Positions 38,068-60,391 of a stretch of 64,000 nt of DNA are shown piece after piece. This stretch comes from Caldilineaceae bacterium (GTDB lineage: Bacteria > Chloroflexota > Anaerolineae > Caldilineales > Caldilineaceae), in contig JAPKMW010000004.1 of assembly GCA_026645575.1 (NCBI GenBank), forward strand, positions 193,597 to 257,596, in the 5' to 3' direction. Position numbers and translations under genes: made by a program. The notes beneath the pieces are model-generated. The model did no database searches and was not told where the DNA came from. It saw only the letters and a program-made list of their open reading frames with translations. Positions within the stretch are counted from its first letter, which is position 1. The number at the start of each line of letters is the position of its first letter.

Positions 38068-38151
38068 GGGTCCTCCATAAAAACACAAAAGAAAAATCAA
38101 TTTTTATTCTGAAACGAGACTATGGAAATAGCTCAGTTCATTCAAGTTGGA

Positions 38152-38425
38152 TTATAACAGCCCAGCCGCGAGGTAGTACTCTTCGACGCCGTAGCGGGTG
38201 TAAAAGACAAACTTATCGGTCATTTCCTGTTTGCGATTACCGGGCGAGAGAATTTCAAAGACGACTTGGGGCGCGATGTCCTCTTCCAGCCATTGTAAAT
38301 ATGATTCCCGCCGTCCTTTTGGGGCGCCCCAACGCCACCATCACATCCGGCGCCTGACGAATCGTGTTGTCCCCTTCCACCGGATACCAGAGCAGATCGC
38401 CGGCAACAAAGACTTGTGACCTCAT
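38152..38425 (-). pseudogene. Truncated, frameshifted Uma2-family (DUF820) endonuclease remnant
   Basis: Reading leftward from 38425 the frame gives QVFVAGDLLWYPVEGDNTIRQ and then APDVMVALGRPK, the middle of a Uma2 protein. At the AAAA run near 38325 one extra A shifts the frame; in the next frame it continues RRESYLQWLEEDIAPQ, VVFEILSPGNRKQEM and KFVFYTRYGVEEYY, then stops. The first 50 or so residues and the C-terminus normally present in Uma2 are missing, and a perfect palindrome begins one base from the 5' end of the remnant. Uma2 proteins are PD-(D/E)XK fold proteins abundant in this group. Confidence 0.78.
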
Positions 38426-38483
38426 CGGTCGTAAAGACTTTAGTCTTTCCCCACCGGGACAAAGACTAAAGTCTTTACGACCG
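38426..38483. repeat. Perfect palindrome (GTAAAGACTTTAGTC family)
   Basis: 23-bp perfect arms at 38426-38448 and 38461-38483 with a 12-base loop. It abuts the Uma2 remnant on one side and lies 5 bases from the oppD stop on the other. Confidence 0.93.
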
Positions 38484-38488
38484 AGTTA

Positions 38489-39541: not shown

Positions 39542-39918
39542 CGCTCCACTTTCATCGCTATTATTAGACTTACGAGAAGACGCACAAGCTGTATAGGAAG
39601 CCATCCATAACCGGCATATCCATGATTATGCCCTGACGCGCGTTGGTGGATTCCAAGCAAACCAGGGGCCAATGACCTACATCGGTAGACCACCAAAGAT
39701 CCGCTCTTACCGCGCTCGCCAGCGGGTAGTGGGTTGTGCGGAAACGCCAGAGACTAGAGCGGGAATGCGACAGCCTACGAAGTTGTGCTAGCTTCAGCAT
39801 CAGGCTGTGCTGAACCGATCACTGTCTACTGGGAGCTTGCGTGATTATGAACGATTGTGATCAGGGACAGCAATCAGGTTGCCTTGACGAAATAGTGCCG
39901 TTCGTTGGGAGTAAAGTC

Positions 39919-43903: not shown

Positions 43904-44043
43904 GTCGCGTAGTCGCGTAGTCGTTTGGTCGCGTAGTCATTGGGTCGATAGTGGTCTAGGCTGGGCTGATTATATTTGCAAAAATATCAAATTAGTACAT
44001 CCTACGCGACTATGCGACCAAACGACTACGCGACTACGCGACT
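43904..44043. repeat. Inverted repeat built from GTCGCGTA units
   Basis: A 32-bp arm (43904-43935) made of GTCGCGTA/GTCG and GTTTGGTCGC units pairs with 44012-44043 with one mismatch; about 76 bp lie between. The right arm runs into the 3' end of the maturase gene and provides its TAG stop. Confidence 0.9.
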
Positions 44044-45351: not shown

Positions 45352-45372
45352 GCTGACTCCTACTTTAGTCGA

Positions 45373-45464
45373 GTTCACAGAGAGCGCAGCGGCGACACAG
45401 AGATTTGCAGAGATCAAAGAGAGTCTCTGGGCGTCTCTGTGAAATCTCTGCGCCCTCTGTGAAC
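45373..45464. repeat. Inverted repeat with CACAGAGA units
   Basis: GTTCACAGAGAGCGCAG (45373-45389) pairs with CTGCGCCCTCTGTGAAC (45448-45464); the middle repeats ACAGAGA/TCTCTGT motifs. It sits between kdpg aldolase and maturase genes. Confidence 0.88.
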
Positions 45465-45468: not shown

Positions 45469-46119
45469 TTATTTAGCCTGTACAGCCGCGTTCCACGCTT
45501 GGCGCAGGGCTTGGGCGCGATTGGCGAGATCGGCCAAATCCTGGCCTGGCCCGGTTACCAGGGCGCTGCCGATGCCGGCGGCAACAATGCCGGCTTTCAC
45601 ATACTCGGCCACGTTGTCCGCCGAGATGCCGCCGGTGGGAACAATTTCAATATCATCGAGCGGGGCGCGGATCGCTTTGATATAGCGCGGCCCGACAATC
45701 TCTGAGGGAAAGAGCTTGACCATGCGACAACCGGCGACAAAAGCATTCTGTGCTTCGGTGGGGGTGAAGACGCCGGGCAAGTGGAGCAAGTTATGCCGTT
45801 GGGCCGCTTTTACCGTCGCCAAGTCTAAATTGGGCGCAACGGTAAATTGGGCGCCGGCGGCAACCGCTTCTTCTAACTGTTCTGCTGTACGCACCGTGCC
45901 GGCGCCAACGACCATGCGGTCGCCAAATTGGGTGCGCAACTGGCGAATGCTTTCCAGTGCGCCAGTGGTGTTGAGCGTCACCTCCATCACCGGAATCTGG
46001 TGGGCCAGCAGCGTTTCGGCAATGCCAATGACCTGGTCGCGGCTGAATTTACCGCGAATGATTGCGATCAAGCCGGTCGCCCGCACACTTTGCGCGACGG
46101 CTTCTGCATGAGTGGACAT
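45469..46119 (-). CDS. eda: KDPG/KHG aldolase
   Basis: 216 residues, the normal length of a class I KDPG aldolase barrel. Visible are the catalytic Glu46 (VMEVTLNT), the Schiff-base Lys135 in MVKLFPSE, and the phosphate loop VPTGGIS. It splits 2-keto-3-deoxy-6-phosphogluconate into pyruvate and glyceraldehyde 3-phosphate, or acts on the galactonate analogue. No dehydratase or kinase lies beside it, so the exact sugar acid pathway is not shown. Confidence 0.92.
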   Translation of the reverse strand: MSTHAEAVAQSVRATGLIAIIRGKFSRDQVIGIAETLLAHQIPVMEVTLNTTGALESIRQLRTQFGDRMVVGAGTVRTAEQLEEAVAAGAQFTVAPNLDLATVKAAQRHNLLHLPGVFTPTEAQNAFVAGCRMVKLFPSEIVGPRYIKAIRAPLDDIEIVPTGGISADNVAEYVKAGIVAAGIGSALVTGPGQDLADLANRAQALRQAWNAAVQAK

Positions 46120-46371
46120 GAATGGACTCCTACTGGTTATAGCTAGATCGGAACAACAGTTCTGTTGGGTAGCATACCATAGATAGCTTTTATTTTCCAG
46201 TCATAACAAGCAGGGGTGCGTATTACTACGGGTTGCTTGTTGTCAGTTACAAAAATAGTAGACAAATGAGAGATCAAGATCATGATTTTTATGGTATATT
46301 ATTTTCATCATCCTTATACATAACCCATCAATATTGTTATCAAACTGAGGGATGTGAGTAGAGAGGAAACT

Positions 46372-47916
46372 ATGCACCACGAATTAATCAATGCAACCCA
46401 GGAAGAACGGGCTGAATGGCAGCGGCGGTATGCGGCTGTTGATGCGGCGTTGCGACAGACAGAGGCGCTTCTCACTGATCCGCAGGTGACTTTTACCAGA
46501 AAGGCGACAATTGCCGGCGTGGTGAAACAGTTGCGCGCCTTTGGTGAAAAGCAATTTGCCTTTTTTGATGAAGGCTTTCATCGGCCAGACCCCTTCTTTA
46601 CCCTCAGTGATGATCCACTGCAAGGGGTGGCGGCCCAGTATGTCTTTGGCACCATTATTGACCAAATCGCCCATGACAGCAGCGTGCTTGATCAGATCGA
46701 AATGCAACGGCGCGATCAACGCTATGCCGCAACGCTGGCGGTGGCTGATCGCGTCGCCTATGACGCCCTGGGGTATGTGAGCCATCTGCTCAACACGCCA
46801 TCAACGGTTCTTACCTACTTGCAAAAATCCCCTGATGCACGAGTGATCCCCTATGCGCCGGTGGCCTTGATTGGCATCCCGCGCACTTGTCATCCGTTGC
46901 AAGCGACATCTCCGCAGGGCGTCGTGCGTGATCTGTTGGCAATTCCCCATGAATTGGGCCACCATCTCTATTGGAATGGTCATGAGGCCGAGGACAGCGG
47001 CAAGCAACTGCGCCATCAGCCCCCCATCAACCGCTTGCAGCCGGACAAACCAGCCTGGTTGGCTGCCTGGTTTGAAGAGATTTTTGCTGATGTTGTTACC
47101 TGTGTCATCGGTGGGCCATTGGCAGCGTTGAGTATGCAGGAACTGCAACTACAGGCGCGCAATGATTGGTTGTTGGTTGACAATGGCGTCCATCCGGTGG
47201 CGGCGTTCCGCACCTATATCTATCTTGTTGCGCTGGAGGCCATGGGGATGCCAACGGCTGCGGCTAAATTAACAGCCCGCTGGCACAAAAAGTTGACGGA
47301 TCGCGCCCTTGTATCGCCAGGGCGCGATCCCCTTGACTACCTCTGTTTCTTACCCTCTACCAACGAAGCGCCACTGACCTTTCGGGCTGCCTTAGAACGA
47401 ATGCGGACGTTGATTGTGGCGTTAGTCCATCTCTTTCAAAGCGGCGCTGCGTCAGCCGACAGGAATACCCTCAGTGCTTGTGCCGGCGTACAACCGAGCA
47501 ACAACGGTCGCTCACCCTGGTCTGCGGATCTCTCAGCCGACGCCGATCTAACTAACGATGCCGAGGTGGAAGCGCTTTATCAACAATTTGAGCAGTGCGT
47601 CCTCGATACTTTTACCGATGGGCAAACGACATCGAATCAACAGATTGACAGTAAGTTGGATCCATATTGGAAGCCAGAAAACTGGCTGGAATTAGTAGCG
47701 CAACGCGGCGTTACTTTTGAAATCGCCGAGGAAGTGGTCAACAGGCGCCGCTTGCCATCATCACAATTTGTCATTGATCAGATCAGCAGATGGTATTCGA
47801 GGGAACCCCAGGACCCCAAAGACATTCCCCTTGAATTCGCCGAGTGGATCAAAATTCTCGAATTTGCCGGCTGGTCAACCGAAGGGCCGACCGATGGCAA
47901 TCTCTCTGGTGGTTAA
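46372..47916 (+). CDS. Putative HELGH zinc metalloprotein of unknown family
   Basis: 514 residues from ATG 46372 (AGAGGAAAC upstream); a GTG at 46354 is an alternative. The sequence IPHELGHHLYWNG gives His193-Glu194-x-x-His197, and EEIFADVV about 40 residues on supplies a candidate third ligand (Glu235/236), the layout of gluzincin-type metallopeptidases. No signal peptide or membrane helix, so it would act in the cytoplasm. The remaining 300 residues are helical and charged without a known motif. I do not recognise a family. It is convergent with the XRE-NB-ARC-TPR gene, overlapping its 3' end by 4 bp. Confidence 0.65.
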   Translation: MHHELINATQEERAEWQRRYAAVDAALRQTEALLTDPQVTFTRKATIAGVVKQLRAFGEKQFAFFDEGFHRPDPFFTLSDDPLQGVAAQYVFGTIIDQIAHDSSVLDQIEMQRRDQRYAATLAVADRVAYDALGYVSHLLNTPSTVLTYLQKSPDARVIPYAPVALIGIPRTCHPLQATSPQGVVRDLLAIPHELGHHLYWNGHEAEDSGKQLRHQPPINRLQPDKPAWLAAWFEEIFADVVTCVIGGPLAALSMQELQLQARNDWLLVDNGVHPVAAFRTYIYLVALEAMGMPTAAAKLTARWHKKLTDRALVSPGRDPLDYLCFLPSTNEAPLTFRAALERMRTLIVALVHLFQSGAASADRNTLSACAGVQPSNNGRSPWSADLSADADLTNDAEVEALYQQFEQCVLDTFTDGQTTSNQQIDSKLDPYWKPENWLELVAQRGVTFEIAEEVVNRRRLPSSQFVIDQISRWYSREPQDPKDIPLEFAEWIKILEFAGWSTEGPTDGNLSGG

Positions 47917-50366
47917 AGCGTAGGGGCGGCCAGCTTTTGTTCAATTTTGGTGAGAAGGGCGTGCTGGTGTTTGTCGGCGAGCGCCCTTGCTTCGTGCCAA
48001 CAGGCGTCAGCTTCTGCCGACTGCGCCAAGGCATGATGGATCTCCCCCTGATAGTAGAGCGCCGTGACCAGGTTGAATTCATCGCCAACGGTGCGCAGGA
48101 TGGCGACACACTGTTGTGCCGCTTGTAAGCCGGCGGCATACTCCTGGCGCAAGGTGTGAATCCGCCCCATCTCGTGATACGTAAAGGCCAGAAAGGTGCG
48201 ACTGCCGATGCGTTCAAAGAGGGGGCGGCTCTGCTGGATGCTTGCTTCGGCCTGGGCCAGATCGCCCAATTGGCGATCAATTTTGCAGAGACTAAAGAGC
48301 GCTGCGCCTACCTCCCCTTGCTCTTGGCTGGCGCTAGCCAGGGTATGTGCCTCCTGGGCATAAGCGCGAGCGCCGGTGAGATTATTGTCGGCCAGGGCAA
48401 TGTCGGTTAAAAGCCGTAGCGTGCGGATCCGTCCCAGCGGATCGGTTTGTGGCGTTTGGGTGGTCAAGCTTTGCTGGCAGAGCATGGCTGCCGCCGCCAG
48501 CGCCCCCTGGCGATAGCTGATGAGCGCCTGCCAATAGTCAACGGCGGCGACGCCGATGGCATCTTGCAACTGGCTACGAATGGCACGACAACTGGTGAGC
48601 AAGGGTTGGGCCGCGCCATAGTTGCTCTGCTCTACGGCGATGCGCGCCAGATCCCACTGCACATCGCCGATCAACTCATCACTCTCCACTTGCATAGAGA
48701 GCGCTAACGCTTCGGCCAAGAGCGGACTGGCGGCGGCATAGTCATTTTGCTCGATACAGACGCTGCCCCATCGGCGCAGGTTGATGGCCAGCGCATCCGG
48801 CTGGCCGGTTGCGCGCGCCGCGGCGACGGCCAAGCCATAGCCCTGGCGCGCCTGGTCAAACCGCCCGTGGGTAAACCAAGGCTTGGTCAACACCGCAGTA
48901 TACGCCAACACCAAGTTCCATGCTTGCAAACGGTGAGCTGCCGCCATGCCGGTCATGAGATGATCCCACTCCGGTTCCAGCGGCGCCGCAGAAGATAAGG
49001 CGGACCGGACAAAAGCCAGTTGCGTTTCGGCAAACCGTAGCCACGCCGTCGGCGCGGCGCCAAGCTGTTCCTGGGCAAAATCCGCTAACAAAGGGTGTTG
49101 GCGATAGCGCTCCAGCGTTTCGGCGTTGACCAGCGAACGGGCCGCCAGCGTATCCAGCCCCTCAATTACTTTCTCAATCGCTTCGTCCAATACAGCCGCC
49201 AGCGCTGTTGCCGCAAAGGAACGCCCGGCAAAGAGCGCCAGATGGGCAAAGAGCCGTTGCTGCTGAGTATCCAATGCTTCCCAACTAACCAAAAATGAGG
49301 TGCGCACGGCCCGATCGCTGATCTGGAGATCCAGGCGATAGTGGAGATCTTGCAAACGCTGGGCCAGCGCCGCCAGGGGACGCTGGGGACGCGCGGCCAG
49401 GAGTTGGCCCACGATTTCCACCGCTAGCGGCCAATGATGCACCGCCGCACAGATGGCGACGGCCGCGTCCGGTTCTTGCTCCACCCGTGCGCGCCCCAAC
49501 AGTCGAGTTAGCAACTGCACACCTTCGCCGGGCGCCAACGCTGCCAGGTCAAAGGGACGGCTTCCCAATGCCGCCGCCACATCATGGCTGCGTGTGGTGA
49601 GTAGCACGCCGCTCTGTTCGCCGCCCAAAAGCAGTGGGAGCATCGCTTGCACACTGGTCACATCATCCAAAACAAAGAGGATCTGCTTTGCCGCTAGCAC
49701 GCTGCGGAGGGTCATGGCGCAGCTTTCCACGTCGCGCAGGGCGCTGTAGTCATAGCCAAAGGCGCGCGCCCAACTGTTGAGAATGTCCAGCGGGGTGCTG
49801 ATCGCGGTCTGCGCCCAGAGGGTGCCATCGGGGTAGTGGGCGCGCAGGGCATGGGCCAGTTGTACGGCCAGCGCCGTCTTGCCGATACCCCCCATGCCGA
49901 CCAGCGCAATGCGCCGCGGCGGCGGGGCAAGGGGAAGTTGGGCTGCGACCTGGGCGACCAATGCTTCACGACCAACAAAGTGAGGCGGCAGCGGTGGCGC
50001 TTGCCAGGGAACGGGCTGCGCTGGCCCCATTGCGGTAGCAGGCGAGGTGATGCCAGGGCGAGGGGCGGTGGTCAGGCGGCGCCATTCGGTATCACTCAGG
50101 GGATCCCATTGCCACTCCTCGACCAGTATTTCCCAGATGGCGGCAAAACGTTCGGGGTCTTGGCGCAGGCGCAGACCATCCCACAAATAGTGCAAAAAGG
50201 CGACGCGTCGGCTGGCATGGGGCGTCATCGTGCCGCGCTCCCAGGCGCCGGCGGTCTGATGGCTCTGGCGCCCTTGGAGGCCGCAATGGCGCGCCATGTC
50301 GGTCTGGCTGAGACCGGCTTCCTCACGCAGGATGCGCAATTGGTCAAGACGCTGGGCGTCGGGCAT
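47913..50366 (-). CDS. XRE-NB-ARC-TPR (STAND) transcriptional regulator
   Basis: About 817 residues from ATG 50366; the longer frame upstream has no ribosome site. Residues 5-60 are an XRE-like HTH (LRILREEAGLSQTDMARHCGL, AWERG). An NB-ARC ATPase follows, with P-loop GMGGIGKT (157-164), Walker B LFVLDDV, LLTTRSHD and a WPLAVEI motif (GxP-like). Then come about 300 residues of TPR-type repeats (RRWGSVCIEQNDYAAASPLLAEALAL and similar). This is a STAND switch regulator that binds a ligand through the TPRs. It is divergent from the small exported peptide gene across 201 bp. It is close in design to the split pair at 50818-53446. Confidence 0.88.
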   Translation of the reverse strand: MPDAQRLDQLRILREEAGLSQTDMARHCGLQGRQSHQTAGAWERGTMTPHASRRVAFLHYLWDGLRLRQDPERFAAIWEILVEEWQWDPLSDTEWRRLTTAPRPGITSPATAMGPAQPVPWQAPPLPPHFVGREALVAQVAAQLPLAPPPRRIALVGMGGIGKTALAVQLAHALRAHYPDGTLWAQTAISTPLDILNSWARAFGYDYSALRDVESCAMTLRSVLAAKQILFVLDDVTSVQAMLPLLLGGEQSGVLLTTRSHDVAAALGSRPFDLAALAPGEGVQLLTRLLGRARVEQEPDAAVAICAAVHHWPLAVEIVGQLLAARPQRPLAALAQRLQDLHYRLDLQISDRAVRTSFLVSWEALDTQQQRLFAHLALFAGRSFAATALAAVLDEAIEKVIEGLDTLAARSLVNAETLERYRQHPLLADFAQEQLGAAPTAWLRFAETQLAFVRSALSSAAPLEPEWDHLMTGMAAAHRLQAWNLVLAYTAVLTKPWFTHGRFDQARQGYGLAVAAARATGQPDALAINLRRWGSVCIEQNDYAAASPLLAEALALSMQVESDELIGDVQWDLARIAVEQSNYGAAQPLLTSCRAIRSQLQDAIGVAAVDYWQALISYRQGALAAAAMLCQQSLTTQTPQTDPLGRIRTLRLLTDIALADNNLTGARAYAQEAHTLASASQEQGEVGAALFSLCKIDRQLGDLAQAEASIQQSRPLFERIGSRTFLAFTYHEMGRIHTLRQEYAAGLQAAQQCVAILRTVGDEFNLVTALYYQGEIHHALAQSAEADACWHEARALADKHQHALLTKIEQKLAAPTL

Positions 50367-50567
50367 ACGGGTTGATGGCTCCGAATGGCTCTTTGATGGG
50401 TGCATTGATGGGTTTGCCGGGTGACAACCCCTCCGCCATTCTGCCATGATAGAGGGGCTTAAGCAAATCGGGGGAATGAGTAATTGCCAACGGCACATGG
50501 TGCGCTCCCCGACGCCATGACCCGTTGCCATGCCGACAAAACAATGCTGATAAGGAGAATATTTACC

Positions 50568-50732
50568 ATGAATACCACGTTTGTTTCTACCCGTCGTTGG
50601 CTGGCCGCCCTGATCGTCGCCGCCGTGGTCGCCGTCACTGCCGCTTATGGGCCGGTGTTGTTAAGTGAAGGGGCTGGTATGGATGCTGGAACGCCAGTGT
50701 ATGCTTGTAACGCCGCCGGTGGTGGCTGCTAA
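50568..50732 (+). CDS. Small exported peptide with C-terminal cysteine pair
   Basis: 54 residues from ATG 50568, which has a strong AAGGAGA 8 bases upstream; the longer upstream frame is not credible. The N-terminus is basic (STRR), then a hydrophobic signal-like helix (WLAALIVAAVVAVTAA, residues 11-26) and a short tail ending VYACNAAGGGC, with Cys47 and Cys54 as the only cysteines. It could be secreted with a small disulfide ring, or be a tail-anchored or processed signalling peptide. It is divergent from an XRE-NB-ARC-TPR regulator, and convergent with the TPR gene beyond a palindrome. No homologue known to me. Confidence 0.65.
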   Translation: MNTTFVSTRRWLAALIVAAVVAVTAAYGPVLLSEGAGMDAGTPVYACNAAGGGC

Positions 50733-50754
50733 TAGTTAAAACAGATAAAAGTTG

Positions 50755-50800
50755 CCTCTACGGTAGGGGCGTCCGCAAGGGGACGCTCCTACCGTAGAGG
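50755..50800. repeat. Near-perfect palindrome (GTAGGGGCG family), convergent terminator position
   Basis: CCTCTACGGTAGGGGCGTCC (50755-50774) pairs with 50781-50800, one mismatch, 6-base loop. It lies between the convergent peptide and TPR genes and is well placed to end both messages. Confidence 0.88.
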
Positions 50801-50817
50801 CGGAGTCTATGTATTTG

Positions 50818-52008
50818 TTATAATAGAGCAATACTTGCTTTGTCCAAATGCGTTACTAATTTATCACGCAAATTTTCATAATAAGGTGTACCTTGAATTT
50901 CCGGCAACAATGAAATTGCTTGCCGTAAGATTTGGCTTGCTTGTTCGTAGTGCAATGAACCGATCAGCGCTAAAGCCAAACCATCCAGTGCATTAATATG
51001 CCAAATCATATCTCCTAGCTCTTTATAGAACGCTGCTGATTGAATAAAGGCGGTTTGCGCTTTTGAATAATCTTTCTTATCTAGACTGACTAGCCCAATA
51101 TTTGTGAAGATTCTAGCGAGATTTAATTTATCATCATACTGACAAAAAATGTCTTGAGCATTAGCAAAACAGATAAGCGCCAGATCCGGTTCTTTGGCGC
51201 GTTGATAGGCAATCCCCAGATTCATTTGAGCGATACTTCTGTGATAATAGTCACCAATTTTCATAAGCGTTTGTTCAGCTTGTGTAAAATATTTGATTGC
51301 CTCTGCAATTCGCCCCTGCTCATTCAATGCATAGCCGATATTTTGTAAGCTCCAGGCAGACCTTCGAATATCACCAACCACTTGAAATAGTTGTAACGCT
51401 TGGTTATGTAATTGCTCTGCTTGAGACCAATTCCGTTGTCCCATTGCAATCATTCCTTGAATCCGATAGCTTACTGCTTGTTCGACCTGAAACTCAATCG
51501 AAGAATTAGAACGATACAGAGGCAAAATCTTATCTAAATACGCACTTGCTTCCTCATATTGATGAACCAAATGTGCCTGCCATGCTAACTCATTATAGGC
51601 CCGCACTTGACCTAGCAAATAAGACAAATCTTCAAAATGTTTGAGACTGGCCCAAAGCCATCGCCGGGATTCAGCAAAACGGCTCAACAACCGGTAGAGC
51701 AACCCAATTTGTAATTCACATTCCGCTACCGTTTGGACATCGTCTAAGCTCTGTGCAACGTACAGGCCCTTTTCTAAATAGGGAATCCACTCCTCGCGGA
51801 AGCCGGCCTGCTCCATTTTGGGGGCCAGCGCCAGCAACAGTGCGCGCGTCGCCGGCCATGCACCCGGTGTATTGAGGGCAAAGCTCAAAATATGCCACGC
51901 CTGTTGGCGGTCCGCTTCCGACACAACGGCGGCTGCCTGTATGCGGTCAAGGGAAGTCTGGACGCCAGCGATAGTATAATGGGTGAAAAGCGCACTGATC
52001 GATTGCAT
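50818..52008 (-). CDS. TPR-repeat protein (split receptor half)
   Basis: 396 residues made almost entirely of tetratricopeptide-type repeats, e.g. AECELQIGLLYRLLSRFAESRRWL, RIQGMIAMGQRNWSQAEQLH and ARIFTNIGLVSLDKKDYSKAQTAF. No enzymatic or membrane segment. Its ATG lies one base after the stop of the NB-ARC gene upstream (TAA-T-ATG), so the two are translationally coupled. Together they equal one HTH-NB-ARC-TPR regulator as encoded in a single gene at 47913-50366. The pair is best seen as a split STAND regulator, with this half as the ligand sensor. AT-rich codon use in its C-terminal half differs from the neighbours. Confidence 0.85.
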   Translation of the reverse strand: MQSISALFTHYTIAGVQTSLDRIQAAAVVSEADRQQAWHILSFALNTPGAWPATRALLLALAPKMEQAGFREEWIPYLEKGLYVAQSLDDVQTVAECELQIGLLYRLLSRFAESRRWLWASLKHFEDLSYLLGQVRAYNELAWQAHLVHQYEEASAYLDKILPLYRSNSSIEFQVEQAVSYRIQGMIAMGQRNWSQAEQLHNQALQLFQVVGDIRRSAWSLQNIGYALNEQGRIAEAIKYFTQAEQTLMKIGDYYHRSIAQMNLGIAYQRAKEPDLALICFANAQDIFCQYDDKLNLARIFTNIGLVSLDKKDYSKAQTAFIQSAAFYKELGDMIWHINALDGLALALIGSLHYEQASQILRQAISLLPEIQGTPYYENLRDKLVTHLDKASIALL

Positions 52009-52009
52009 A

Positions 52010-53446
52010 TTACCGATTTGTGTTCCACTTCAATACCTGCTCCTGCAAAAAGGTGCGTGTCAGGGCGTGAATGGTATAGCGCCGTTCATGCAACCCGCCG
52101 CGGCTATCGACCAGACTGAGCGCGACCAGGCGTTCCAAGGCGTCGCTAACGGCGGCGGCACCCAAATTGGCGGCGGCGGCCATGCGCGTCAGATAGTCGA
52201 GATCGCCGCCGGCTTCCGTCACCAGCGGCATGAGCAACAAGGTCTGTTGCGCGACTGCGTCGAGTTGTTCCCACACCTGCCAGTAGATGTAGCGGTAGAG
52301 CTGTTCCACGCGATAGCCTTGGGCGGCCTGCAAGGCGGACAGCACCCGGTCAAGCGGGTGAATATGAGTCTGCCCAACCACCAGCCGTAAGGCCAGTGGG
52401 TTGCCGCCGACGGTGGCATAGATTCGCTGTAAGGTAGTGTCATCTGCCCCGACCAGATCGGGAAGATTGCGTACCTGCGCCTCCTGCCGCACCAACAGCA
52501 ACGCATCGGTGGCGCTCAACTCTGACAAGGTGTAGTGAAAGATGTCATTCTCATGAAAGCGACTGACGCGACTGGTGAGCAAGAACTTGGTCGGGTTGGC
52601 CAGTTCACGCAAGAGGCTCAGTAGACTCTCGATATCGAGTAGCGTCTCCAGATTGTCGATCACAATCAGGTGAGGTTGGCTGCGCAGCCGCTGTTGCAAC
52701 ATGGTCCGCTTCTGTTCCAGGGTGAGAACCGCAGTGCCGACAGCGTCGCTCAGCAATTGCTTGACCAGCGCATCGACCAGCGCCTCTGTTGTCAAGGCTG
52801 GTTTGGGAACCGGTTTAATGGCGCCGCCGCCATTAAAAACCTGTTGCCGCGCCGTAACCCAGGCAAAATCCTGCCACTGGTGGCCCCCTAACAAGTGGCG
52901 CGCCAGCGCATCGGCCAGCGCTGTCTTGCCGATGCCGCCAATGCCCTCAATGGCGATCAACCAGGGCGGGCCGGCGCCATTGATCTGGTCGGCCAGCCTG
53001 ACCATATGGACTGTACTACCAATCAGTTGGTGATAGGTGGGTGTCTCCAGGCGAGTAGCAAAGCGCGCCAAACGGCTGGCGCGCGCCTCATGCTCCTGCT
53101 CTTGCAAAAGAACCGTTAAGCGAATCAGCGCCTCGCGTTGCTTGCGCCAAACGGTGCCTTCAGCAATATGCAAGATGTTGGCAATACGGTGGCCCGGCTC
53201 CTCCCGAAGAAAGCGTAGTTCCAGCACTTTCTGGTACTCTGGCTCTTCGCGGGCTAGCAAGGCAAAAGAATTCGCTAAAAGTTCGTTCGTCGTGCGCCGA
53301 ATTGCGCCATCATAGGTGGGTGCGAGTTGTTGCCACAGGAGCAGATCGCTGAACGGTGTACCGTGCGCATCGCTCTGGCGCCAAAGGGTCAATGCTTGAT
53401 GGACGGCTTCTTCGGTCGGAATCGGCGTTACCGTCGCTGCGACCAT
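52010..53446 (-). CDS. HTH-NB-ARC ATPase (split STAND regulator)
   Basis: 478 residues from ATG 53446, with GGAGG 11 bases upstream. Residues 68-115 form a sigma-70 region-4-like HTH (LELRFLREEPGHRIANILHIAEGTVW), not the XRE type of its neighbour. The NB-ARC core has P-loop GIGGIGKT (168-175), Walker B LIVIDNLE, LLTSRVSRF and GGNPLALRL. It stops before any TPRs, which are supplied by the next gene one base away. A promoter lies upstream at 53542-53570. Ligand and target genes are unknown; the regulated gene may be the DJ-1-like or protease genes across the divergent region. Confidence 0.88.
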   Translation of the reverse strand: MVAATVTPIPTEEAVHQALTLWRQSDAHGTPFSDLLLWQQLAPTYDGAIRRTTNELLANSFALLAREEPEYQKVLELRFLREEPGHRIANILHIAEGTVWRKQREALIRLTVLLQEQEHEARASRLARFATRLETPTYHQLIGSTVHMVRLADQINGAGPPWLIAIEGIGGIGKTALADALARHLLGGHQWQDFAWVTARQQVFNGGGAIKPVPKPALTTEALVDALVKQLLSDAVGTAVLTLEQKRTMLQQRLRSQPHLIVIDNLETLLDIESLLSLLRELANPTKFLLTSRVSRFHENDIFHYTLSELSATDALLLVRQEAQVRNLPDLVGADDTTLQRIYATVGGNPLALRLVVGQTHIHPLDRVLSALQAAQGYRVEQLYRYIYWQVWEQLDAVAQQTLLLMPLVTEAGGDLDYLTRMAAAANLGAAAVSDALERLVALSLVDSRGGLHERRYTIHALTRTFLQEQVLKWNTNR

Positions 53447-53541
53447 AGATGGAATCGCCTCCGCTATAAAGTTATGAACAATTATTTCGGGACAACCATA
53501 TATATTGTAAGTTGTGTGATAGCTCAACAAGAATTGTCCAA

Positions 53542-53570
53542 AGCATAACAAAAGTTTAATTGATTGTCAA
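53542..53570 (-). promoter_or_regulatory. Putative sigma-70 promoter of the split STAND operon
   Basis: On the minus strand: TTGACA (53570-53565), 17-bp spacer, TATGCT (53547-53542). About 90 bases of leader precede the start codon. Confidence 0.5.
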
Positions 53571-53741
53571 TGGTTTTTCAAAAATAGATCGCATTGTTAG
53601 GAAACCGCAAAGTCAATAGCTTACCTGAAGAAAATGTTATGGTTTTTGATAGAAGAAGATGAGTAATGCGTGAGTTCGCGATCAGAATGCGTATAGGAGT
53701 ATAAGAGCATCAGTGTTGGCAAAACGAGAGGATAGAAGCGC

Positions 53742-54182
53742 ATGGCGATCAACCAACGCTGCGCGCTGGTGCTATGGGGCGCAGCCTGTGATGAAGCGGT
53801 TGCGGCCATCTTTGTAACGGGATTGCGCAGCGCTGGTCTGCGGGTATGGGTCGTTGGCGTCAGCGGGCGACGCGTTGCCGGCGCTCATGGGTTGCGCATT
53901 CAACCGGATCTGCTGCCCCAACAAGCGCTGGCTTTGGTCAAACAGGTTGGCTGTGTCGTGATCCCGTGCGCCGAATTGTTGCTGGCGCGTTTTCAGGATG
54001 ATCCGAGCGTGGATGCGTTATTACGTAGTACAGCGGAAGCGCAAGCCCAGTTTGTTGTGCCGGCCACCTGTACCCAGCCTGTGTTGGCCTACACCACCGC
54101 CTTGCTCATCTACCCGTCGGTGGAGCGATTGGTTCCCTTTGTCGCCATGCTAGCGGAAACAATCGCGCCGGGGATGCCATAG
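53742..54182 (+). CDS. Small possible DJ-1/PfpI-like protein
   Basis: 146 residues from ATG 53742 (GAGAGGATAG upstream). Alternating strands and helices with a CVVIPCAELL strand and a VPATCTQPVLAYT segment recall the DJ-1/PfpI fold, where a Cys after the fifth strand is the nucleophile; here Cys at about residue 109 could fill that place. The similarity is weak and I would not assign an enzyme activity. It is divergent from the STAND pair and lies upstream of the double protease on the same strand, 248 bp away with a palindrome between. Confidence 0.45.
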   Translation: MAINQRCALVLWGAACDEAVAAIFVTGLRSAGLRVWVVGVSGRRVAGAHGLRIQPDLLPQQALALVKQVGCVVIPCAELLLARFQDDPSVDALLRSTAEAQAQFVVPATCTQPVLAYTTALLIYPSVERLVPFVAMLAETIAPGMP

Positions 54183-54230
54183 AACCAGACCGCAGTAGCC
54201 GCAATCAGGCCGGGTTATGAGTAGCGTCAA

Positions 54231-54258
54231 CGTAGGGGGAGTCCCTAGACTCCCTACG
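54231..54258. repeat. Short palindrome (GTAGGG family, diverged)
   Basis: CGTAGGGGGAGTC pairs with GACTCCCTACG with a two-base bulge and a short loop, upstream of the double-protease gene. Confidence 0.7.
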
Positions 54259-54429
54259 CTGTTGCTGTTACTGGAATTTCCATGGCAAAAGCGTTTATGG
54301 ATGGTAGGCAGGAGTTGCGCACCTCCTGTGCTGACAGATCTCCGGAGACCGGTCAGCGCTGCCTGGCGCGTGTATAGCTTTTGTAAGCTTTGTTATTGAA
54401 TGGTCAATGCCAAGAAAGGAATCTCCCCG

Positions 54430-57400
54430 ATGTCGTACACTTATTATGCCAACGGACAGCTAGTTGAACTGGAAGTGGATGAAGATGTGGTGGCCGTGCG
54501 CTTCACCGAACCGGCGGAACACAGTCTGCGGGCGGCAGTGGCGGGGGCGGCTAACCTGGCCCCCTTTGGTGAACGGATCGAACTGCCGGAGGAAAAGTTT
54601 ACCATCTTGCCGGTAGCCCAAATCGCCAAACCGCGTCATGAGCGCTATCTGGCCGCCGTTGCGCAACTGGAGCAGGGCGATGAGGTGACGCGCGTGGCGC
54701 CGGTCTTCAAACTGGGTGACAAGCGCGCCGTCGCCACCGACCGTTTGCTCATCGGCCTGAAAGAAGCGGGCAAGAAGGCGCGCAAGCTATTGCGCGATCA
54801 CGGATTGAAGGTGCTGGAAGAGTTTGGCGACGGCGCCGAGTTTTTAGTGCAACTGCCACCTGAAAGCGATCCCTTTGCCACCCTGGCCGACCTTCAACAA
54901 CTGGCCGAGGTGGCCTATGTCGAGCCTGATCTGGTGATTGTCGGTCAGCATACCAGGCGGGTGGCTGTCTCCGGGGCTGCGGGCAACGATCCGTTGCTGC
55001 CCAAGCAATATGCAGCGCAAATTACTAAAGCCGTAGACGCTTGGACCAGCCAGCAAGGACGACCGGAGATCAAGATCGCAATTCTGGATGAAGGCGTGGA
55101 TACACAACACGAGGATCTGGTTGCCGCCATCAAAGGCGGCTTCGATGCCACGGATAATGATGAATTTCAGGAACCCAACCAGTGGGATGGGCATGGCACG
55201 GCTTGCGCTGGCCTCGCTGCCGCTGTTTCCAACAACAATCTGGGGGTGCGCGGCATTGGCGCCGGTTGTTCATTGTTGGCCGTGCGGATCGCCTATTCGT
55301 CGGAACCTGGCTCCGATCACTGGGTGACGAACAATGGCTGGATTCGGCGTGCGATCGACTGGGCGTGGCGGAAGGGGGCCGATGTTTTGAGCAATAGTTG
55401 GGGCGGCGGTTGGCCCTCAACGGCGGTTACCCTGGCCTTTGAACGGGCGCGCACGCAGGGGCGCGCTGGCAAAGGCTGTGTCATCGTCATCGCCGCCGGC
55501 AACGACAGCGGTCCGGTGGACTTCCCCGGCACCTTACCCAACGTCCTGACCGTCTCGGCCAGCAACGAGTTTGATGAATTTAAGACCAAGAGCAGTCGCG
55601 ACGGCGAACAGTGGTGGGGATCGAACTTTGGCCCGGAAGTCACTGTGGCGGCGCCCGGCGTTCACAACTACACCACCGATATTACCGGCGCCGGTGGCTA
55701 CAATGGTCAATCCAATGGTCATTATGTCTCCAATTTCAATGGCACTTCTTCGGCGACCCCTATTGTGGCCGGCGCCGTGGGCTTGATCCTTTCGGCCAAC
55801 GCCAACCTGGGCGAAGCTGCGGTGCGCGCCATCATTCGTGATACCGCCGACAAAGTGGGAGGCCAGCCCTATTTTCAGGGGCGCAATGACCAGATGGGCT
55901 ATGGTCGCCTGAATGTGGCGCGGGCGGTGGCAGCGGCGCGCGCCCAGAGTGGCGGCGCCGTGGGGCCAGTCACCAACGGCCTGCCGCCAGTCACCAATGG
56001 CGTGCCGTCGATCATGGACGCGGCGGCGGGCGGACAGAGTTTACAAGAGAAACTGGAACAGATTGTCGCCTTGACGCCGGAGCAACGGGTGTTGCTGCTC
56101 GACCAGGCGCTGCACTTGCTGGATAACTACTATGTCCATCTGCCACTCAAACGGGCCATGCACGCCATCGACCCGGTGCAACGGCTAAAATTGTTGCGCA
56201 ATCGCCTGGACAGCCTGAGTGATCGCCAGTTCCACAGCGAATTGCTGGCGATCTTCAACGGCCTGCGCGATTTACACACCAACTATCTGCTGCCGGACCC
56301 CTACCGGCGGATGCGGATCTTCCTGCCTTTTCTGATTGAGGAGTTCTACGAAAATGGCAAACGCGCCTTTATGGTCTCCAAGGTGCAGACTGGCTTTACC
56401 CACCCAACCTTTCAGCCGGGGGTACTCCTCACCCACTGGAATGGGCTACCGATTGCGCGCGCCATTGCCCTCAATGCCGATCGCAACGCCGGCAGCAATG
56501 ACGATGCTCGCCATGCCCGTGGCCTGGAACGCATGACCGTTCGCCCGTTGATCATGACCTTGCCGCCAGAGGAAGAGTGGGTGGACGTGCGTTACAAGGT
56601 CGGTGACGTCAGCTATGATCTGCGCTTTGTCTGGCAGGAATTGCCGCCCCTGGCCGGCGACATCCAGTGGTCGAGCGCCGATCAGAGCGACCTGGGGCTG
56701 GATCTACAGACGGAAGCAGCCCGGTTGATGAAGAAAGAACTCTTCGCACCGGCTGCCATGAAGATTGCCGAAGATGTCGCCCACTATCGGGCGGGCGCTA
56801 TGAGCGACGCTGCCGCGCCCGACCTGAACAAGGTGAGTTTGCTGCCGGATAATTTCGCCTTCCGCACGGTTGCCACACCGCACGGCCCGATCGGCTATCT
56901 CCGCATCTACTCCTTCTCACGGCAAGTGCAGGTGGAGACCTTTGTCGAGGAGTTCGTCACCGAGTTTCAACGGATTCTCGGCCTGTTGCCCGCCACTGGC
57001 TTGATCATCGATGTGCGCGGTAACGGCGGCGGCTTTATTTATGCCGGCGAATTGATTCTTCAGTTTCTGACCAAAGAACGGATTCAGCCAGAACCGTTCC
57101 ACCTGATCAACACCTTTGCCACCCAGCAACTCTGTGAACAGGTTGCCTTTATGCAGGAATGGCAAGAATCGATTGCGCTCTCGCTACAGACCGGCGCCGT
57201 CTATTCCCAGGGCTTCGCCTTAACCCCGCCGGCGCTGGCAAATCAAGTGGGCCGCCTCTATCAGGGGCCAGTTGTGTTGATTACCGATGCCCTCTGTTAC
57301 AGCACAACCGACATCTTTGCCGCCGGTTTCCAAGATCACAATATCGGCCCCATTCTGGGCGTCCACGGCAATACCGGCGCCGGCGGCGCCAATGTGTGGA

Positions 57401-57630
57401 CCCACACCTTCCTGCGCGAGCAGTTTGGTGGCGGCGGTTTTCAACCGTTGCCGGCCAATGCCAACTTCCGCGTCGCCATTCGTCAATGTGCGCGTGTGGG
57501 GCGTCGGGCCGGGCTGCCAGTGGAAGACCTGGGGGTGCGCCCCGATCACCGGCATGAGATGACCCGCCGCGATTTGTTAGAGGATAACCACGATTTGATC
57601 CAGCGGGCGGCGGCGCTGCTCTTCCCATAG
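54430..57630 (+). CDS. Subtilisin-like (S8) and S41 tail-specific protease fusion
   Basis: 1066 residues from ATG 54430 (AAGGAA upstream). A non-catalytic N-terminal part of about 200 residues leads to an S8 domain with Asp220 (ILDEGVD), His255 (DGHGTACAG), Asn358 (AAGND) and Ser440 (GTSSATP), a complete subtilase site. After a Gly/Pro linker a C-terminal S41 protease domain carries DLHTNYLLPDP, DVRGNGGGFIYAG and the catalytic serine at Ser958 (CYSTTDIFAAG). No signal peptide is seen, so the protein is probably cytoplasmic or exported in another way. A single-chain S8-S41 protein is unusual. It may process peptides or regulators encoded upstream; that is inference. Confidence 0.9.
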   Translation: MSYTYYANGQLVELEVDEDVVAVRFTEPAEHSLRAAVAGAANLAPFGERIELPEEKFTILPVAQIAKPRHERYLAAVAQLEQGDEVTRVAPVFKLGDKRAVATDRLLIGLKEAGKKARKLLRDHGLKVLEEFGDGAEFLVQLPPESDPFATLADLQQLAEVAYVEPDLVIVGQHTRRVAVSGAAGNDPLLPKQYAAQITKAVDAWTSQQGRPEIKIAILDEGVDTQHEDLVAAIKGGFDATDNDEFQEPNQWDGHGTACAGLAAAVSNNNLGVRGIGAGCSLLAVRIAYSSEPGSDHWVTNNGWIRRAIDWAWRKGADVLSNSWGGGWPSTAVTLAFERARTQGRAGKGCVIVIAAGNDSGPVDFPGTLPNVLTVSASNEFDEFKTKSSRDGEQWWGSNFGPEVTVAAPGVHNYTTDITGAGGYNGQSNGHYVSNFNGTSSATPIVAGAVGLILSANANLGEAAVRAIIRDTADKVGGQPYFQGRNDQMGYGRLNVARAVAAARAQSGGAVGPVTNGLPPVTNGVPSIMDAAAGGQSLQEKLEQIVALTPEQRVLLLDQALHLLDNYYVHLPLKRAMHAIDPVQRLKLLRNRLDSLSDRQFHSELLAIFNGLRDLHTNYLLPDPYRRMRIFLPFLIEEFYENGKRAFMVSKVQTGFTHPTFQPGVLLTHWNGLPIARAIALNADRNAGSNDDARHARGLERMTVRPLIMTLPPEEEWVDVRYKVGDVSYDLRFVWQELPPLAGDIQWSSADQSDLGLDLQTEAARLMKKELFAPAAMKIAEDVAHYRAGAMSDAAAPDLNKVSLLPDNFAFRTVATPHGPIGYLRIYSFSRQVQVETFVEEFVTEFQRILGLLPATGLIIDVRGNGGGFIYAGELILQFLTKERIQPEPFHLINTFATQQLCEQVAFMQEWQESIALSLQTGAVYSQGFALTPPALANQVGRLYQGPVVLITDALCYSTTDIFAAGFQDHNIGPILGVHGNTGAGGANVWTHTFLREQFGGGGFQPLPANANFRVAIRQCARVGRRAGLPVEDLGVRPDHRHEMTRRDLLEDNHDLIQRAAALLFP

Positions 57631-57675
57631 CTGCTGACGTTTTGTAAAAAAAGCCTTAATCGGTTCACCCATCCC

Positions 57676-57738
57676 GTAGGGACGCATGAGTTTAGGAACA
57701 GGTCTGCCCTTGCCACGCCTAAACTCATGCGTCCCTAT
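57676..57738. repeat. Palindrome (CCCGTAGGGACGCATGAGTTTAGG type)
   Basis: 21-bp arms (57676-57696 and 57718-57738) with one mismatch. A partial copy of one arm occurs at 3014. Confidence 0.9.
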
Positions 57739-57762
57739 AGGACAAAAGCGGAAGGTGCTGTG

Positions 57763-58404
57763 ATGGCAAAATTCCTAGTTTCCACGACACCACCGATTGC
57801 AACGCGGCGTGCAGTTGCGCCCCTGTGGGCGGCCCTAGTACAGCCAGGCGCCACCTTTGCACAATTGGCTGCCAGTGAGCATGGCCAGGTGTGGCTGCCG
57901 CTGGGAAGCGCGCTCCTGACCTTCTATCTACACACCTTTGTCCTGACTATAGTGCAATCGGCGCCGCTGGATTGGCGCTTTGCCAGCGGCGTTCTCAACA
58001 TCCTGGTGGGCTGGCCGCTGCGCGTTGCTCTGCTCTATGGCATCGCCCGCTGGATTGCGGGTCCACCGGCGTTGCGCCCCCTCGCCATTCTGAGCGCCTG
58101 GGCCACGCTGCCCTTGACACTGCGGAGCGCCGAGCAAACGCTTTACTTGCTCACCACCGGCCACCCCGTCATCCATCCGGGGTTGGCTGGTCTGCTGGCG
58201 GGGGTTGATCCGGCGCTGCCGCTGGTGAAGCTGGGAGCTTTTGCGCTGGGGTGGCTCGATCTCTTTACCCTCTGGCACCTGGCGCTACTGGTGGTCGCCG
58301 TGCGGATTGGGGCCGGCGCTGCCGCCAGCCGTGCGATCATCACGGTTGCGTTTTACAGCGGGTTTTTCCTGTTGGCGGGTGGTCTGCTAGCATTGCTGTT
58401 CTAG
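57763..58404 (+). CDS. Yip1-family membrane protein
   Basis: 213 residues from ATG 57763 (GGAAGGTG upstream). Four or five hydrophobic segments (for example WLPLGSALLTFYLHTFVLTIV and ILVGWPLRVALLYGIARWI), a LPLVKLGAFALGWLDLFTLWHLALL segment and a C-terminal helix follow the Yip1 domain layout. Its first region, LWAALVQPGATFAQLA, is the usual cytosolic lead-in of Yip1 proteins. Function unknown; it is probably the first gene of an operon with the three exported proteins. Confidence 0.75.
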   Translation: MAKFLVSTTPPIATRRAVAPLWAALVQPGATFAQLAASEHGQVWLPLGSALLTFYLHTFVLTIVQSAPLDWRFASGVLNILVGWPLRVALLYGIARWIAGPPALRPLAILSAWATLPLTLRSAEQTLYLLTTGHPVIHPGLAGLLAGVDPALPLVKLGAFALGWLDLFTLWHLALLVVAVRIGAGAAASRAIITVAFYSGFFLLAGGLLALLF

Positions 58405-58444
58405 TCTTTGTTCTACCCATCCTGTTCTCCCTGTCGAGGCGCAC

Positions 58445-60391
58445 ATGAAACTTCCTTTCCGCTACTATTGTTACCTGGGGTTGTGCTTGCTATTCGCGGG
58501 TTGGGTTGGCTTGTCCGCGCCCATTGTATCGGCGCAATCGCCGAACGATCCGATCATTCCCCCGAAGCCGACAGCCACTAATACGACGGAACCCAAAGCC
58601 AAATTGGAAATCGTGCGCTACGAGACGGATCCGGCAGAAGTACGCGCACAAGAATCATTTACCCTTATTTTAAAGATCAAAAATCTAGGAACATCTGCTG
58701 CAACCGAGTGGGCCATTCGTCAAGATCTTTGTCCTGGCAAAGATTTTGCCTTTGAAGATGGTTGTATTCGATCGATCCCCACGCTACAGCCAGATGAGAG
58801 TATCACGGTTTCTTTCCGTGTGCGTTACACACAAAAAGTCAATGCCGATCAGGTATCAGCTAAACTGCTGAGTCTTTTACTCCTTGATGAGAAGCAGGTG
58901 CAATCTGGCCTAAACAGGGAATTATCTATTTTTGTGCTTGCCTCACGTACCATCGGAGACGAAACGCCGGTGGTAAAACGGCCCTTTCCCAAACCCCTTT
59001 TGGTTGTCCACCGCACCTGGACAGCGAAAGCACGCGCAACCGTCAATGAGCTACTAACCGCCGTGCCACTTGTGATCAACAAGCTTTCCATTAGTAACGG
59101 GATTGGCGGCCCAGAGTTTGAAGTGGTTGTCGAGTTGCAAAATCAGGGGTCAGTAGATGCCAGCAATATTTTTATTGATTTCTGTGATACCGGCGACAAC
59201 TTTAACCCTGTCTACGCCGGCTGTCGGAAACAGGTGCCAACGACCTTAGCGCCTGGCGCCAATGCCATTGCGTCGCAGACGATGGCTTATAAAAACCAGC
59301 TTACACCCCCGGCAACACCAACCCAGCGCGGCGATATGGTCAAAGTTGAGATCACTTACGAATTTTGGTATGAAGGGCAGTGGCTACGCGAGAGTATCAG
59401 CGATACCGTCTACTTATATCCGCAATTTTTCCCAGCAGTAACGCCGATTCCTGCATTAACAGGTGATGAGCATAACATTGATCCTGATCTATTCGTGAAT
59501 ACACCGCAACTTAATGTCCGCTCTGGGCCGGGTGTAAACTATCCTATCGTCGGCGTCACCTACCAGGGGGCGCGTTTTCTTGTCAAGGCTCACCATCAGC
59601 ATGAGTGGTGGCAAATTAACTTTAACGGTGTCTTGGCCTGGGTTTCTGCCCAATATGTCATTGCCCGTGGGGTGGAAAAAATTGAACAGGTGACAACCAC
59701 CCCCGTCCCCCCACCGCCGACGCCGGTCTTCATCCCCAATCCCAACCCGGTGGGGGGAAGCGATTTTGCCGCCACCACCATCCCGGTGAAGTTTGCCGAC
59801 GCACCCGTGACCCCAACTGCCACGCCGACGCCGCTACGACAGGCGCCCTTGCAACAAGCGCATGGCGAACCGGCGACGCAGGTGCTATTGGTCAACGCCG
59901 CCGCTGAACAAGGGCAAAGCGGAGGTGTGACCGTGGCGTCCTTGGCGAATGCGCCATTGGTGATGGTCGAGCGCTATCAAGCCCTACCGGCCCAGCCGCA
60001 ACCGGGCGAACCCTTTCGGCTGGAATTAGTGTTGCGCAACATCGGCGCCAGACCGGCGCAACAGTTGCTGCTTTCTTGGCAGGGTACGGCGATTATCCCG
60101 CTGGGAACGGGCACAACGATCGCACTGGCCGATCTGTCGGCAGGGGATGCGGTCACAATCCAGGGTCATTTTGTCATCAACACAACAGAACGCGCACCTG
60201 TAATCTACTTGCCAATCCAACTACGCTATGCCGATGAAGCTGGGCAGATAACGCCCTATACTGAGCAATTGGCGCTGTTGCCCCAGGCTGCCGGCGGCGT
60301 CCTGCCCTGGCAACCGGCAGAAGTAGACACCGAGCGCCCGTTATGGCTGCGTGTGCTTTTTGGATTGCTGGGGTTAGGAGCAGAAGAATGA
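58445..60391 (+). CDS. Exported CARDB/SH3-domain protein with PLWLR C-terminus
   Basis: 648 residues. A signal peptide ends near PIVSAQ. Two CARDB-like domains (about 50-170 and 200-320, with cysteine pairs as in FCDTGDNFNPVYAGC) lead to an SH3b-like domain with NTPQLNVRSGPGVNYPIVGVT and WWQINFNGVLAWVSAQYV. A Pro/Thr linker and a third beta domain (MVERYQALPAQPQPGEPF) follow. The last residues RPLWLRVLFGLLGLG form a short amphipathic helix, also found at the end of the next gene's product. It is likely attached to the cell envelope. The stop overlaps the next start in the form AATGATG. Confidence 0.82.
   Translation: MKLPFRYYCYLGLCLLFAGWVGLSAPIVSAQSPNDPIIPPKPTATNTTEPKAKLEIVRYETDPAEVRAQESFTLILKIKNLGTSAATEWAIRQDLCPGKDFAFEDGCIRSIPTLQPDESITVSFRVRYTQKVNADQVSAKLLSLLLLDEKQVQSGLNRELSIFVLASRTIGDETPVVKRPFPKPLLVVHRTWTAKARATVNELLTAVPLVINKLSISNGIGGPEFEVVVELQNQGSVDASNIFIDFCDTGDNFNPVYAGCRKQVPTTLAPGANAIASQTMAYKNQLTPPATPTQRGDMVKVEITYEFWYEGQWLRESISDTVYLYPQFFPAVTPIPALTGDEHNIDPDLFVNTPQLNVRSGPGVNYPIVGVTYQGARFLVKAHHQHEWWQINFNGVLAWVSAQYVIARGVEKIEQVTTTPVPPPPTPVFIPNPNPVGGSDFAATTIPVKFADAPVTPTATPTPLRQAPLQQAHGEPATQVLLVNAAAEQGQSGGVTVASLANAPLVMVERYQALPAQPQPGEPFRLELVLRNIGARPAQQLLLSWQGTAIIPLGTGTTIALADLSAGDAVTIQGHFVINTTERAPVIYLPIQLRYADEAGQITPYTEQLALLPQAAGGVLPWQPAEVDTERPLWLRVLFGLLGLGAEE

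Follow-up and report, generated by a model that had tools for sequence, protein, structure and literature searches.

A conserved exported-type peptide encoded divergently from an XRE-NB-ARC-TPR regulator: a candidate functional module of Caldilineaceae-type Chloroflexota

Introduction

Does a regulator of the STAND class control, or sense, a small peptide encoded back to back with it? The question is raised by a 64,000-nucleotide stretch from a Caldilineaceae bacterium (contig JAPKMW010000004.1, positions 193,597 to 257,596; hereafter the window), in which the gene of an XRE-NB-ARC-TPR regulator (47913..50366, minus strand) lies divergently from that of a 54-residue peptide (50568..50732, plus strand), with 201 bp from start to start. 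An earlier note on this DNA had seen here a peptide-signalling neighbourhood of STAND regulators, an exported peptide and a double protease; all genes that it named were found in the sequence, each as an open frame, and regulator and peptide are divergent as it described. We consider there to be an even chance that regulator and exported peptide form a functional module of Caldilineaceae-type Chloroflexota, with the regulator controlling the peptide gene.

The best-ranked titles and abstracts of the open-licence PMC literature described neither the peptide family nor a STAND peptide receptor in Chloroflexota, and offered no ligand for Chloroflexota STAND-TPR regulators. For AfsR, the excerpted text of PMC10936776 states that whether the TPR sensor has an inducer at all remains elusive. 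A conserved exported-type peptide divergent from a STAND-TPR regulator provides a concrete candidate ligand or target. Were the peptide a ligand, STAND-receptor peptide signalling would extend beyond Bacillota, and quorum sensing would be joined to an NLR-type switch. As a target alone, it would still stand for an exported peptide family that is new and whose invariant terminal Cys is unusual.

Results

A conserved family of apparently exported peptides

The peptide gene is preceded by a Shine-Dalgarno-like AAGGAG (50552..50557, plus strand), with 10 bases separating it from the ATG. Several over-extended peptide relatives display RRIF or QENII directly before Met, consistent with a kept GGAGAA. 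The product consists of an N-terminal TRRW, a hydrophobic helix, the stretch AYGPV...AGTPVYAC and a terminal loop, C-NAAGGG-C, the latter corresponding to the C-x6-C ending previously noted. A single-sequence search yielded six relatives besides the window peptide, while a second, alignment-based search of 5319 candidates gave 44 clusters including that of the window, all at E <= 2.3e-11. The peptide is not a chance open reading frame (ORF), given these 43 further homologous clusters; judged by sequence, it is a real conserved family, as yet unnamed, with no Pfam or NCBIfam model reaching its cut-off. Two clusters carry an organism name, Caldilineaceae in both cases. Viral contigs gave 13 pattern matches and no relative, and plasmids gave no match. 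The family was found in none of 31 relatives of a Nocardia genome, a set with no known positive for calibration, so that the empty answer proves nothing. A wider search of such relatives gave 14 of 397 at E <= 0.01 (best 2.1e-4), located inside frames of 175-1354 residues and judged to be noise. This set was taken as one phylum: 4 of 12 genomes yielded small-subunit rRNA, and those four are 90-95% alike.

Residues R9, P29, A46, C47, G53 and C54 are invariant in the family alignment, and AVTAAYGPV...AGTPVYAC is nearly fixed. All 44 clusters end in Cys and contain exactly two Cys within the last 12 residues. The loop between these comprises 6 residues in 32 clusters, 7 in six, 8 in five and 9 in one, with 33 distinct loop sequences, and its columns are among the most variable in the alignment; the first eight residues vary too. 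Candidate C-terminal products of the window peptide would be CNAAGGGC, linear or oxidised, and the 28 residues from Y27. Twin Arg is present in 42/44 clusters, and K/R is absent after the Y/F-G/A-P motif in 42/44. Export is suggested by the twin Arg, compatible with Tat or Sec, and by a hydrophobic segment whose KD15 peaks at 2.72 from residue 12. A structure model contains one helix, residues 3-34, followed by a tail that the model does not resolve (pLDDT ~51).

Signal peptidase cuts follow the -3,-1 rule, by which the invariant A46 and the V/A/I/L at -3 would make a V-Y-A|C cut before C47 permissible. Lipoboxes follow the pattern [LVI][ASTVI][GAS]C after a hydrophobic stretch; A46-C47 does not conform, as position -2 is Y in 40, F in three and H in one of the 44 clusters.

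The regulator is a STAND protein with an XRE-type N-terminus

The regulator gene was found present and open at 47913-50531 on the minus strand, with NB-ARC and TPR domains matched in keeping with its original description. Its true start is very likely the ATG at 50366, giving 817 residues, because the closest relative (P0046; 816 residues, 79% identical) begins MPDAQRLD at this point. The regulator has 450 relatives at E <= 1e-10, and the comparisons with relatives use the best 120 of these. Pfam scores are 25.2 bits for HTH_31 (just under the cut-off of 27), 66 bits for NB-ARC (PF00931) and 51.8 bits, in four stretches, for TPR_12 (PF13424). The resulting layout places a helix-turn-helix (HTH) at ~1-100, NB-ARC/NOD at ~120-460 and a TPR superhelix at ~460-817. 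A Walker A motif, GMGGIGKT, is present, of which G157, M158, G159, G160, G162 and K163 are invariant across 56 alignment rows. A Walker A-containing NB-ARC followed by a repeat superstructure corresponds to a STAND NTPase of the NB-ARC class, and matches to 6mfv, Apaf-1 and CED-4 were obtained. By modelled fold class, the regulator is an AfsR/MalT-like STAND protein.

A search of genome contigs returned a Nocardia relative (28%) as sole match. Neither the XRE nor the NB-ARC protein of the locus matched a PADLOC-DB 2.0.0 model at E <= 0.01, and an antiphage reading of the two STAND proteins was dropped for this reason. Among the relatives, P0139 is a SARP-type regulator from Caldilineaceae whose listed contig, at 14,277,107 bp, is remarkably long for a bacterium if correct.

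A conserved element lies in the shared gap

The 201-bp gap common to both genes contains a conserved non-coding element (50392..50439, minus strand; ATGGCGGAGGGGTTGTCACCCGGCAAACCCATCAATGCACCCATCAAA in regulator sense), 26-73 bp upstream of the regulator start codon. It came to light through four regulators of XRE-class length whose starts are over-extended (P0052, P0058, P0065 and P0077); P0068 was flagged by the script too, yet starts normally. Back-translated leaders of P0052, P0058 and P0065 match 50392-50439, and for each leader 0/300 random stretches of the window scored as high, the observed score being the best of three fragment lengths and the random score using the winning length alone. 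The P0052 and P0065 leaders match one window frame and that of P0058 another; therefore the DNA is conserved, rather than a single coding frame. No match to the element was found for the leaders of P0077 and the SARP-type P0110, and the low score of the P0164 leader was reached by 1/300 random stretches.

Inside the element are two direct repeats (50393..50413, minus strand), 12 bp apart from start to start, which read TTGATGGGT on the plus strand and ACCCATCAA in regulator sense, a pattern also written CCCATCAA. The repeat pair is the sole such match in the window, with 14/100 shuffles containing at least one match at up to 3 mismatches. Judged by its sequence, the element probably serves as an operator or promoter. 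A weak promoter-like site of the peptide gene (GTGACA-18-CATGAT; 50421..50450, plus strand; 1 found versus 0.3 expected) has its first hexamer within the element. An imperfect inverted repeat, TGCCAACGGCACATGG / CCATGACCCGTTGCCA, at 50485..50530 represents a possible second site. Rfam gave no match over 46000-58500.

The pair apparently recurs on a few other contigs

Linkage in other genomes was inferred from identical bp sizes of the longest contig given per protein cluster in two protein searches, comparing the 43 non-window peptide clusters with the best 120 of 450 regulators. Four contigs agree exactly, compared to 0.14 expected by chance (smoothed estimate). Three are informative: 10,133 bp (peptide P0010 and regulator P0060, both jgi), 81,058 bp (P0011 and P0059, both with ncbi) and 118,532 bp (P0026 and P0072, both ncbi,nr and Caldilineaceae). 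The fourth, of 2,729,891 bp (P0020 and P0074), is too long to inform, and a near match of 12,561 (P0003) to 12,556 bp (P0143), both 'ena', was excluded from the count. Among 15 contigs (428 kb), 0.09-0.43 informative cases are expected at one regulator per 4.6 to 1 Mb, and the probability of three or more is 1e-4 to 0.01. Regulator density is assumed here: megabase contigs show one listed regulator each, but were listed for having one.

All four linked non-window regulators fall in a 20-row clade with the window regulator (support 93/99). The tree contains 47 rows (the first 45/67 rows of 700-900 residues and 2/52 of SARP type), and was drawn open with bootstrap unsettled. Finding 4/4 linked rows within 19/119 gives 0.0005, and 3/3 gives 0.0035, assuming the 73 rows outside the tree fall outside the clade. 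Clade members P0062, P0071 and P0072 possess another N-terminal domain, IRRIKR...VIQDELGYALGR, the sequence of which suggests the DNA-binding domain has been swapped on a common NB-ARC-TPR body. A special HTH peculiar to linked regulators was considered and dropped, as SHQTxGxWExG occurs in 36/120 rows, linked or not.

Several observations weigh against a module of regulator and peptide. Linkage rests on matching contig sizes rather than on DNA seen around the relatives, and the Poisson figure hinges on density: with a regulator every 0.5 Mb, the probability would be 0.056. The clade was picked after the result was seen, making that count post hoc, and a label test on the tree shows the linked rows unclustered (5 changes against a shuffled mean of 4.8, 500/500 shuffles as low). 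Of the three linked regulators that inform, P0072 carries a different N-terminus. No regulator among the best 120 of 450 was found for 8/12 non-window peptide contigs of at least 10 kb, and no equal-contig peptide for 15/19 non-window clade regulators, four of which are on contigs of 98, 108, 131 and 248 kb; both counts are upper bounds, with one longest contig per cluster, 330 regulators unlisted and small genes possibly uncalled. Furthermore, the conserved element may serve autoregulation alone, because no peptide partner was found among the listed clusters for P0052, P0058 and P0065. Divergence is uncorrelated over five pairs (Spearman 0.01; 63/120 permutations as high), so that the coevolution which the earlier note proposed to look for receives no signal from this mirror-tree; peptide identity exceeds regulator identity in 10/10 comparisons of the five pairs. 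The expectation that the peptide would be found beside such regulators elsewhere receives partial support from the homologues and the three informative contigs; among the listed clusters, neither the peptides nor the regulators are always paired. Universal pairing is unlikely, and the chance that the two work as one unit, at least in a portion of their range, is about even.

Neighbouring genes and elements

The second NB-ARC/TPR regulator, described as two coupled genes, consists of an NB-ARC protein (first half; 52010..53446, minus strand) and a TPR-only protein of 396 residues (second half, by Pfam; 50818..52008, minus strand), joined at TAATATG. The NB-ARC gene, listed as ORF 52010-53551, likely starts at Met36 of that frame, and has a weak sigma-70 region-4-like HTH below cut-off. 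The peptide and TPR genes run towards each other, their stops 85 bp apart, and a hairpin with a 23-bp stem (50752..50803; z -9.71) lies between them. The hairpin is probably a dispersed palindrome and may also be a transcription end; a scan for T-run terminators found none. Dispersed GTAGGGGCG-type elements occur at 2105-2164, 8458-8524, 47919-47928 and 50752-50803, three as inverted pairs, and GGTAGGGGCG with up to 1 mismatch gives 12 matches versus 4.3 expected.

The gene assigned as possibly DJ-1-like (53742..54182, plus strand) is open and weakly matches DJ-1/PfpI (E 1.4e-4), but its 22.2 bits lie under the Pfam cut-off of 26.6. Beyond it, subtilase (S8) and S41 peptidase domains (161.2 and 60.1 bits) are fused in a single chain (54400..57630, plus strand), as the first description had it. 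The fusion holds DEGVDTQH, GHGT, GTSSATP and a Ser-containing S41 region, presumably its catalytic motifs, and is similar to CPAF and mycosin profiles below their cut-offs. A role as extracellular pheromone-maturation protease is unlikely, because no hydrophobic signal-like start is present in its sequence. Nothing was found that ties the split STAND pair, the DJ-1-like gene or the S8-S41 protease to the peptide. In PADLOC-DB 2.0.0 the TPR gene matches PDLC01169 TPR (4.8e-12) and PDC-S28 (0.0069), and the S8-S41 protein subtilase (1e-14) and IetS (0.0014).

On the other side, a 520-residue protein (46354-47916, plus strand) overlaps the regulator end, tail to tail. It has a HELGH motif at residue 199 and no Pfam match, and by this motif is a possible unclassified zinc peptidase. 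A radical SAM/SPASM gene with a SEC-C motif (44026-45417, minus strand) scores as an anaerobic sulfatase maturase (TIGR03942; 510.6 versus a cut-off of 349.45), and in PADLOC-DB 2.0.0 matches pVip (5.3e-15), with others through its SEC-C end. An Opp/Dpp-type permease operon (28167-39604, minus strand) encodes two oligo_HPY ATPases, OppB/OppC-like permeases and an SBP_bac_5 protein, and is broken up by other genes, one of which is multihaem-cytochrome-like (30099-31931).

Discussion

A possible regulatory module and its alternatives

A regulator-target relation would be the simplest form of the module, and has a parallel in AfsR-afsS. By analogy with AfsR and MalT, NB-ARC would keep the HTH switched off for as long as nothing engages the TPR sensor. 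Switched by ATP, the active regulator would bind the repeated element between the two genes and set expression of both the regulator itself and the peptide gene. Conservation of the peptide suggests it would insert through its twin-Arg/hydrophobic N-terminus and then be exported, the two invariant Cys closing a C-terminal loop that is presented or released.

Alternatively, the two genes could be chance neighbours, the peptide being a small protein conserved in the Caldilineaceae envelope, with a role of its own, and the regulator, one member of a large family, controlling other genes. The unpaired peptide contigs and clade regulators, the lack of label clustering on the tree, and a juxtamembrane segment conserved as in a membrane protein are all consistent with this. 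It has to be set against the 10,133-bp contig, which apparently carries both genes, and against the few same-contig cases expected unless clade regulators are dense. We regard coincidence as possible, if somewhat doubtful.

A further proposal is a special case of the module: an autoinducer circuit, in which the peptide is cut to its Cys-loop, re-enters through an oligopeptide permease, and binds the TPR domain to free NB-ARC from autoinhibition. The propeptide architecture is PapR/Phr-like (export signal, variable C-terminal end), the regulator TPR domain is like that of Rap/NprR, and the 33 loops enclosed by fixed Cys, the permissible V-Y-A|C cut and the Opp/Dpp-type operon of the window would all fit such a circuit. 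However, Opp operons are common, and similarity of TPRs is not one of function, given that the TPRs of APC/C score higher and those of LGN slightly lower. The V-Y-A|C site, ~12 residues past the modelled helix, would be distant for signal peptidase cleavage. Moreover, the five pairs do not co-diverge, pairing is not universal in the listed clusters, and the peptides are more alike than their regulators, unlike fast-evolving pheromones. At 817 residues the receptor is also outside the RRNPP range of 250-500, as given in the excerpted PMC10075063. Return of the mature loop as TPR ligand is possible, though less likely than not. A more specific form is a tentative suggestion of similar standing: in the cytoplasm, an XRE-NB-ARC-TPR STAND receptor would sense a disulfide-closed C-x6-9-C loop, so that an apoptosome/NLR-type switch, in place of a plain TPR protein, would read a pheromone, the loop conferring strain specificity and the rest being fixed by export and processing. 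The peptide-signalling interpretation that first drew attention to the locus hence gains from the peptide family, the same-contig cases and the Rap/NprR-like TPR half, but loses by the absent co-divergence, the non-universal pairing and a receptor that is too long.

An antimicrobial or membrane-active effector, bacteriocin- or type-I-toxin-like and switched on by the regulator, appears improbable: the peptide is small and hydrophobic with a possible disulfide loop, its hydrophobic part alone weakly matches holin-like models (E 0.031 and 0.016, below cut-off), and STAND regulators such as AfsR can control secondary metabolism, but the Pfam-scanned neighbours include no immunity, dedicated exporter or peptide-modification gene, the one radical-SAM gene scores as a sulfatase maturase, the tail is without K/R in 42/44 clusters, and there is little diversification outside the loop.

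Comparison with known systems

In FxSxx-COOH and HaaA cyclophane systems of ribosomally synthesised and post-translationally modified peptides, an NB-ARC-TPR protein is encoded with a short peptide. The window regulator resembles their NB-ARC-TPR profiles (78.8 bits for FxSxx_TPR and 125.5 bits for HaaT), but misses the cut-offs of 300 and 1125 bits. The locus showed no cyclophane maturase, the single radical-SAM gene that was scored being the anaerobic sulfatase maturase, and the window peptide differs in having its own hydrophobic segment and Cys ends. In comparison to MalT, 6mfv and Apaf-1, the regulator has a different DNA-binding domain.

The RRNPP/RRNPPA systems (PlcR-PapR, NprR-NprX, Rap-Phr) resemble the pair in that a TPR regulator gene stands beside the gene of a small propeptide, apparently an exported one, in the combination of HTH and TPR, and in a permease in the region. 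The TPR half of the window regulator aligns with Rap and NprR, TPR folds being alike in general. In contrast, the window receptor has an NB-ARC switch between HTH and TPR within its 817 residues, and the peptide has two invariant Cys and a conserved middle and stems from a Chloroflexota-type source. The RRNPP criteria, as excerpted from PMC10075063, comprise a Sec-exported propeptide (21-50 residues validated, 10-100 by default) and a TPR-containing receptor of 250-500 residues, encoded as direct neighbours (-60 to 400 bp by default), with the mature peptide bound by the TPR domain. Against these, the 54-residue peptide is in the default range and just above the validated one, the TPRs are evident from PF13424 in four stretches and the structure model, and the genes are adjacent in the window at 201 bp between starts, adjacency elsewhere being a same-contig inference. 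The 817-residue regulator is too long, and the 396-residue TPR-only neighbour is of suitable length, but has no HTH by Pfam. By the excerpted PMC10075063 criteria, the pair is not an RRNPP member; it could work like one. An excerpt of PMC9765709 gives a KK duplet in 56% of RRNPPA propeptides, as opposed to the twin Arg of the window family.

The NOD and TPR portions of the regulator are homologous by sequence to those of AfsR, the SARP-NOD-TPR protein of Streptomyces (8k60, 1.4e-36; NF053617, 201.6 bits), with a score far under the AfsR cut-off of 1430 bits. As in large SARPs, the C-terminal half contains NOD and TPR, but the N-terminus is HTH_31-like, an XRE HTH replacing the SARP, with no SARP-type domain (ODB-BTA) among the Pfam matches. 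PF03704, which we take to be the SARP domain marker, is listed for longer regulator relatives alone and not for the window regulator. The gene next to that of AfsR encodes AfsS, a small protein that is not exported. According to the excerpted PMC10936776, AfsR acts on its target afsS through a direct-repeat box, the afs box. The window similarly combines a STAND regulator with repeated DNA near another gene, and its divergent small gene may likewise be the target.

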